In this document: positions 34,641 to 36,704 of the stretch, piece after piece
Layout of the letters: the number at the start of each line of letters is the position of its first letter
Numbering within the stretch: position 1 is the first letter of the stretch
Origin: Paraeggerthella hongkongensis
GTDB taxonomy: Bacteria; Actinomycetota; Coriobacteriia; Coriobacteriales; Eggerthellaceae
Direction of reading: 5' to 3'
Length of the DNA stretch: 64,000 nt
Assembly (NCBI RefSeq): GCF_003340345.1
Contig: NZ_PPTQ01000001.1
Span: 124,001-188,000 of the forward strand
The notes under the pieces: model-generated
What the model was told of the DNA's origin: nothing
What the model saw: only the letters and a program-made list of their open reading frames with translations
Databases searched by the model: none
Position numbers and translations under genes: made by a program

Positions 34641-34829
34641 GCGGATTACCAAGCCGAATTTTAAGCGTTTCAGGCCAAACGCGCAAAGCGAGGTGCAATC
34701 GTCCTCGAAAAGCCCACGTTTGAGCGCGCCCGACATGTGCGCGGTAGCCGCCGCAATGGCGGAATGAGCGCGCCCTTGACTCACCCAACGCAGTATAGTA
34801 TTCTGCCAAACCAATCAAATAGGATATCT

Positions 34830-34909
34830 GCCGCCGGGTAGATCAAGACGCGAGCATGCGCACTTTCATCAGTAGGCCTGAGAAGATGAAAGAGGCGGCA
34901 TGCTTTTTT
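34830..34909 (+). promoter_or_regulatory. Terminator-controlled leader RNA, candidate guanidine riboswitch
   Basis: Two exclusive folds are visible. Terminator: GCATGC (34854-34859) pairs with GCATGC (34898-34903), and CTTTCATC (34863-34870) pairs with GATGAAAG (34885-34892); six Ts follow (34904-34909). Alternative: GCCGCC (34830-34835) pairs with GGCGGC (34894-34899) and removes the terminator's right side. The structure ends 13 bases before the start of a guanidinium-type exporter. Such genes are regulated by guanidine riboswitches; a class IV (mepA-type) relationship is possible, but I cannot confirm the class by eye. Confidence 0.6.
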
Positions 34910-34922
34910 ATTGGGAGGAATT

Positions 34923-35246
34923 ATGAACTGGGTTATCTTGATCATTGCCGGACTGTTCGAAACGTTCTGGGCGTACGAGCTCAAGCTTTCGGAGGGGTTC
35001 ACGAAGCTTGTCCCTAGCCTGCTTACCGTTGGCGGCATGATCATCAGCTTCGGGCTTTTGTCGCACGCGCTCAAAACGCTGCCGCTCAGCGTCGGGTACG
35101 CGGTATGGACGGGCATCGGCATGGTCGGGGCGGCCGTCCTGGGCATGGTGGTGCTCAAGGAGCCGGCAAGCGCGCCTAAGATCATCTGCATCGCGTTGAT
35201 TGCCGTGGGGATCATCGGCCTCAACCTTACGACGCATGAAGGATAG
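34923..35246 (+). CDS. gdx: SMR-family guanidinium exporter (SugE/Gdx-like)
   Basis: The 107-residue product is a four-helix small multidrug resistance protein. The catalytic Glu is in LFETFWAYELK (E13), and the sequence has the Gdx-type features WAYELKLSEGF and YAVWTGIGMVGAA, pointing to guanidinium/proton exchange rather than broad drug export. It works as an antiparallel dimer. ATG at 34923 follows GGGAGGAATT. Expression appears to be gated by the leader RNA immediately upstream. Gdx-type identity is strong; single or paired function is not decided. Confidence 0.9.
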   Translation: MNWVILIIAGLFETFWAYELKLSEGFTKLVPSLLTVGGMIISFGLLSHALKTLPLSVGYAVWTGIGMVGAAVLGMVVLKEPASAPKIICIALIAVGIIGLNLTTHEG

Positions 35247-35271: not shown

Positions 35272-35997
35272 ATGAAGAGATTCATCGCCGAAGACTCGTT
35301 TTGGAACCTGTTTCCCAAGTCCGCCATCGGCATCATCGTCGTTCGCGGCATGAAAAACGCAAGCGACGTGCCCGCCGACGATGCCGCCGAAATCTCGAGG
35401 CTGCTGCGCGACGCGAACGAGCAGGCGAACGCCTACCTGACCAGCAACGTGATTTCCGAAAACGAGCCCGTCAAGGTATGGCGCGAAGCGTACCGGCAGT
35501 TCAAAACGAAGAAGGGCGCGCGCTGCTCGATCGAGAACCTGCTCAAGCGCGTGCTGAAGGGCAACCCCGTAGGATCCATCACGCCCTCGGTCGACATCTA
35601 CAACGCCGTTTCCCTCAAGTACGCCCTGCCCGTCGGCGGCGAGGACATCGACTCGCTCGTCGGCGACTTCCGCCTGGGCATCACCGAAGGAGGCGACGCG
35701 TTCACGCCCATCGGAGAGGACGGCGACGATCCCACGCTGCCGGGCGAGCTGTGCTACCGCGACGACGTTGGAGCCGTATGCCGCTGCTTCAACTGGCGCG
35801 ACGGGCAGCGCACGGCGCTTTCGGACGATTCGAGCAACGCGATCCTCGTCGTGGAGTGCTTGGAACCCGAACGGCGCGAAACGCTGGAAACCGCGCTTGA
35901 CGAGTTCGCCGCCCTCATGGAGCGACACCTAGGCGCAACCGTAACGACGCGCACCGTGATCGACCGCGAGCATCCGGAAATCGTCATTGCCGAGTAA
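35272..35997 (+). CDS. B3/4-domain protein (PheT-like editing domain, stand-alone)
   Basis: The 241-residue product matches the B3/4 domain of phenylalanyl-tRNA synthetase beta, which in that enzyme holds the editing pocket; free-standing versions are common but poorly understood and may act on mischarged aminoacyl-tRNAs or small amino compounds. Visible features are SVDIYNAVSLKYALPVGGED and the C-terminal ILVVECLEPERR. ATG at 35272 follows AAGGAGAAGAGC, 25 bases after gdx, so both should be under the same leader RNA. Confidence 0.85.
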   Translation: MKRFIAEDSFWNLFPKSAIGIIVVRGMKNASDVPADDAAEISRLLRDANEQANAYLTSNVISENEPVKVWREAYRQFKTKKGARCSIENLLKRVLKGNPVGSITPSVDIYNAVSLKYALPVGGEDIDSLVGDFRLGITEGGDAFTPIGEDGDDPTLPGELCYRDDVGAVCRCFNWRDGQRTALSDDSSNAILVVECLEPERRETLETALDEFAALMERHLGATVTTRTVIDREHPEIVIAE

Positions 35998-36079: not shown

Positions 36080-36586
36080 TCAGCAGCCGCGGTTTTCGCG
36101 TGCGGTGCTCTTGTAGAAGATATGCACGTCCTCGTAGGCGCCCATGAAGTTGACGAAGCCCCCGGGAATGGTGCCGACGCGCGTGAAGCCCATATCCTCG
36201 TACAGGTGAATAGCCCCCTCGTTGCTTGCCACCACCGCGTTGAACTGCAGGCCTTGAAAGCCCTTCTTTGCCGCCTGCTCGAGCGAATCCGCTACAAGCG
36301 CACGGCCGAGCCCGACGCCGCGCGCGCTTGACGCTACCGCATAGCTGGCGTTGGCAATGTGCGCGCATCGACCCACGCTGTTCGGATGAAGGATGTACAA
36401 GCCGAACAGCTTCGAGTCGATGGCAGCCACCGTCGTCAGAGCCTGCGCGGCGAAAAACTCGCGCGCCGTATCGATCGTAAGCGGCTCGATCTGCGGAAAC
36501 GCTTCCCCGCCTTCGACCACTTCGTTCCACACCTTGATCATGCCCGGAAGATCCTCTTCACGGTACGGGCGTATCTCGAGCGCCAT
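36080..36586 (-). CDS. GNAT-family N-acetyltransferase
   Basis: The 168-residue product carries the GNAT fold with the acetyl-CoA pyrophosphate loop GVGLGRALVADSLEQA and the C-terminal block ASNEGAIHLYEDMGFTRVG. The subfamily resembles L-amino acid or phosphinothricin-type acetyltransferases, but the acceptor is unknown. ATG at 36586 follows ACAGGAGGCGCGCC. It appears to be a single-gene unit facing gdx-B3/4. Confidence 0.9.
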   Translation of the reverse strand: MALEIRPYREEDLPGMIKVWNEVVEGGEAFPQIEPLTIDTAREFFAAQALTTVAAIDSKLFGLYILHPNSVGRCAHIANASYAVASSARGVGLGRALVADSLEQAAKKGFQGLQFNAVVASNEGAIHLYEDMGFTRVGTIPGGFVNFMGAYEDVHIFYKSTARENRGC

Positions 36587-36704
36587 GGCGCGCCTCCTGT
36601 CGTTTATCGCCGTCAACCTGCGCGGAGCGAACGCGCCGCGCAGGCAAGTATAGCAGAGGCCGGCACCCGCCCGAAAGCAACCGGCAACCGTCGGCAAACG
36701 AAGA

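Follow-up and report, generated by a model that had tools for sequence, protein, structure and literature searches.

The GGAM-1 motif, now guanidine-IV, was described by Lenkeit et al. 2020 (PMC7736828). In this class, guanidine binding has been reported for the 92-nt emrE leader of Raoultibacter timonensis (apparent KD 190 µM) and for the L. lactis member (PMC7736828). Switching ON by guanidine is documented for the L. lactis and C. botulinum members (PMC7736828, PMC11611296). The upper stem of the terminator is at the same time the P2 hairpin of the aptamer, and ligand binding is therefore taken to keep the lower terminator stem open through the kissing interaction between the two hairpins, without a classical antiterminator (PMC7736828). 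A second relevant system is CtdA, a stand-alone B3/4 protein that deacylates canavanyl-tRNA-Arg (Hauth et al. 2023, PMC10018355). This activity was shown for the P. canavaninivorans and C. perfringens proteins, and many ctdA genes are placed under guanidine-I and -IV riboswitches (PMC10018355).

The window analysed here is a whole stretch of 64,000 nucleotides from Paraeggerthella hongkongensis; all features below are on its plus strand unless otherwise stated. It carries, at about positions 34812–34922 and directly before an SMR gene starting at 34923, a leader that is almost certainly a guanidine-IV (GGAM-1) riboswitch of the transcriptional ON type, for which we infer both ligand binding and the direction of switching. 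With the described guanidine-IV RNAs (GGAM-1 or mepA motif, PMC7736828; C. botulinum, PMC11611296), the leader shares two hairpins, a kissing interaction, the conserved loop letters, a 3′ hairpin that doubles as an intrinsic terminator and a position before a sugE/Gdx gene. It differs from the Lactobacillales leaders by its kissing pairs, GCC/GGC instead of the ACC/GGU most often found there, and from known members by a loop 2 that starts with AG rather than GU and by a CtdA-like gene that comes after the exporter.

Transcription is expected to start at about 34811, from a sigma-70-like promoter-like site (TTGACT-17-TATTCT, 34776–34804, 9/12 consensus matches). Two sites of this grade were found in the 1.5 kb scanned, compared to 0.2 expected. 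The first hairpin, P1 (34826–34843), is formed by AUCUGCC (34826–34832) and GGUAGAU (34837–34843) closing a GCCG loop (34833–34836). The second one, P2 (34863–34892), has arms CUUUCAUC (34863–34870) and GAUGAAAG (34885–34892) and a loop AGUAGGCCUGAGAA (34871–34884), and constitutes the upper part of a larger hairpin, 34852–34905. The lower stem of the latter is made of the 5′ arm GAGCAUGCGC (34852–34861) and the 3′ arm GCGGCAUGCUU (34895–34905, G34897 bulged). This hairpin, followed by six U (34904–34909), is an intrinsic terminator, as is the case in guanidine-IV RNAs, and it is the terminator with a six-T tract that an earlier note on this DNA had described. A ribosome-binding site, GGGAGGA (34913–34919), precedes the exporter gene. 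Folding of 34826–34915 gave −33.3 kcal/mol compared to −24.0 ± 2.98 in shuffles (z −3.1), only 1/200 of which was as good.

The class was assigned with a covariance model, R1, built on six Firmicutes leaders only, none of them from the window's own phylum. Its training alignment was A2; a trimmed version, A3, was set aside because P2 was misaligned. With R1, the window element reached 43.6 bits at an E of 4.9e-10; the next-best match in the window had an E of 0.9, and in the whole 2.86 Mb genome this element is the sole match with E up to 1. The same motif is present in Firmicutes leaders (for instance L025, L028, L043, L044 and L054). Within the same family, R1 picks up elements in 43 of the 138 genomes, the three weakest being doubtful. 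For the order of Pediococcus, 39 of 118 genomes have matches, and several of these are weak. One weak match (L136:480–620) resembles a T-box leader (GGUGGUACCACGG) and is a false positive. Two guanidine-IV elements in tandem, each followed by its own SMR gene, were also observed (L043:1392–1949).

The SMR gene of R. timonensis is preceded by the same motif as the window leader. R1 matches that genome strongly at two places, this SMR leader and a site upstream of a CtdA-like gene; the SMR-gene leader compared here is therefore very probably the published guanidine-binding emrE leader. The element upstream of ctdA in Raoultibacter genomes (L133, L135) is a second and divergent guanidine-IV element, with CCC/GGG kissing pairs and CCGGAU replacing CCGGGU.

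The Rfam 15 scan of the window gave no match, either at the gathering threshold or up to E 10, and guanidine-I and -III were also searched for in the whole genome without a match, in agreement with the earlier note, which had seen no hallmarks of classes I to III. The same Rfam scan misses the R. timonensis control locus and other guanidine-IV members, so that the negative scan does not count against class IV. Rfam 15 thus seems to lack the guanidine-IV class. In practice, these riboswitches go undetected by it and are hence overlooked in standard annotation. The earlier note had left the choice between class IV and a new class; class IV is the answer, and no new class has to be invoked. What we describe is a known RNA class in a known type of gene context.

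Structural conservation was evaluated in 47 distinct sequences. With the model structure and the kissing pairs, 93.7% of cells were paired; shuffles reached 73.2% and slid controls no more than 42%. The fit of this alignment to the nested structure is an advantage for the nested pairs but not for the kissing pairs. Changes on both sides were seen in 18 of 25 pairs. They include two pairs in P1, where 98.9% of cells were paired, as well as pairs of P2 and of the lower terminator stem.

The kissing interaction consists of three pairs, GCC (34833–34835) with GGC (34875–34877). Over both alignments, 73 of the 75 complete leaders are compatible with them (L032 is truncated, and five short leaders were scored by eye): GCC/GGC in 49, ACC/GGU in 21, CCC/GGG in 2 and GCC/GGU in 1. 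They are broken in L044 and in a decayed leader, L004. The GCC/GGC, ACC/GGU and CCC/GGG exchanges covary, and the conserved partner of the second GCC of the GCCGCC hexamer (34830–34835) is the kissing GGC; the first GCC (34830–34832) is part of P1.

Another partner had been proposed for this hexamer. In the earlier note, GCCGCC would pair with GGCGGC (34894–34899) to take away the right side of the terminator, and a guanidine switch working by this antiterminator is the first alternative to be considered. Both hexamers are indeed present and fully complementary. However, forcing their pairing destroys P1 and gives −24.4 kcal/mol, 7.8 worse than the best fold (−32.2 kcal/mol). The exact GGCGGC is also confined to the window, being absent from the other 47 sequences of the alignment, and the best six-base complement in the terminator arms averaged 4.37/6 (46 sequences including the window), no better than the null mean of about 4.4 in shuffled arms. 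The two hexamers thus stand as sequence, not as a functional alternative stem, and we regard switching through them as very unlikely.

The loop of P2 was then compared position by position. The letters conserved among the relatives aligned here are present in the window, UAGG at 34873–34876 and GAAG at 34882–34885. The loop starts with AG (34871–34872), whereas most relatives have GU; L131 and the Lactobacillales leader L177 also have AG, which is therefore a natural variant. In published work, mutation identified U67 of a guanidine-IV RNA as required. On our mapping of positions, U67 probably corresponds to C34877 of the window. The change at C34877 is balanced by G34833 and is common to R. 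timonensis.

Besides the antiterminator, three further readings of the leader were weighed against a guanidine-IV riboswitch. A Gd4v variant, sensing a ligand other than guanidine, would have the same architecture of two hairpins, kissing loop and terminator (PMC9788692), a likeness that the window leader shares. Genes downstream of Gd4v RNAs are mostly those of a transaminase, a GNAT or a MATE protein, and these RNAs are never found upstream of sugE (COG2076) genes (PMC9788692), in contrast to the window leader, whose first downstream gene encodes a Gdx-type SMR protein. Moreover, the terminator of Gd4v RNAs that precede their typical gene bears an additional hairpin (PMC9788692); the window leader has none, its loop 34871–34884 being unpaired. 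A Gd4v identity has, in our estimation, an even smaller chance than the antiterminator. Another orphan motif upstream of sugE, such as GGAM-2, is hardly credible: GGAM-2 is found upstream of sugE in Actinobacteria, but in Actinobacteria only, without guanidine binding and without an obvious expression platform (PMC7736828), while the window element is matched by a model built on Firmicutes alone. Equally remote is a constitutive terminator or attenuator without ligand, with hairpins conserved for other reasons: the terminator is strong, but the kissing pairs covary across phyla, the conserved loop letters are kept and guanidine is bound by what is very probably the counterpart in R. timonensis (PMC7736828).

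The gene directly downstream of the leader (34923–35246) encodes a 107-aa SMR protein (PF00893). Its best match among solved structures is the exporter Gdx-Clo (PDB 6wk5, E 8.8e-32), with which it shares 57 of 104 residues over the full length. G10, E13, W16, S42, Y59 and W62, which we take to be the six binding-site residues of Gdx-Clo, are all kept. By its sequence, this gene encodes a Gdx-type SMR protein and putative guanidinium exporter, as the earlier note had recognized, and the leader thus has a guanidine-related gene (sugE/Gdx) downstream, as guanidine-IV RNAs do. The logic of a terminating guanidine riboswitch before a guanidinium exporter, which that note had read from the sequence, was right in kind. 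Two more SMR genes lie side by side elsewhere in the genome (C23:8720–9321, L153 and L155), without a guanidine-IV match, and are possibly a paired SMR transporter.

A second gene, absent from the earlier note, starts 25 bases past gdx in the same direction (35272–35997) and probably forms one operon with it. It encodes a 241-aa CtdA-like protein in which the B3/4 domain (PF03483, E 1.1e-21) spans residues 70–201, which makes it a stand-alone B3/4 protein. The only other B3/4 match in the genome is in an 849-aa frame, probably PheT. The window gene resembles ctdA (PMC10018355) in encoding a stand-alone B3/4 protein under a guanidine riboswitch and differs from it in being second, after gdx, and not first. 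By this likeness, the protein probably guards against the toxic amino acid canavanine. Neighbourhoods of B3/4 genes in plasmid records of Sinorhizobium, Lactococcus and Collinsella added no canavanine operon. Further downstream, a GNAT acetyltransferase gene (36080–36697, minus strand) is convergent with the CtdA-like gene and lies outside the set of genes downstream of the leader; GNATs are known partners of guanidine-IV.

The association with CtdA-like genes extends through the family, in which most guanidine-IV elements precede such a gene. A CtdA-like gene starts within 600 bases of 34 of the 47 R1 matches. An SMR gene comes first in seven of the 47, with ctdA next in two of these, the window included, and for the remaining six neither gene is nearby or the case is doubtful. 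In another genome of the same genus (G001, loci L004 and L139), gdx is in fragments in different frames and the leader L004 is decayed (22.8 bits, with damage to P2 and to the kissing pairs); the CtdA-like gene is intact there, with 82% identity.

Taken as a guanidine-IV riboswitch, the leader would work as follows. Without guanidine, the nascent RNA would fold the full terminator hairpin (34852–34905) ahead of the six U, and transcription would halt short of the exporter gene. In the presence of guanidine, P1 and P2 would be locked together by the kissing pairs (34833–34835 with 34875–34877); this lock would keep the lower terminator stem open and let the polymerase read through into gdx and the CtdA-like gene. 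The switch would thus most likely turn on a guanidinium pump and its neighbouring gene when guanidine builds up, the inferred outputs being guanidinium export and canavanyl-tRNA editing.

It is possible, if rather doubtful, that guanidine-IV serves this family mainly as a canavanine alarm and not as a detoxification switch. Exporter and deacylase would then be co-induced, and the trigger may be a breakdown product of canavanine, for instance hydroxyguanidine. In the family of P. hongkongensis, guanidine-IV elements are tied mainly to CtdA-like genes; this association, like the added covariation of the kissing loop, extends the published observations and overturns none of them.
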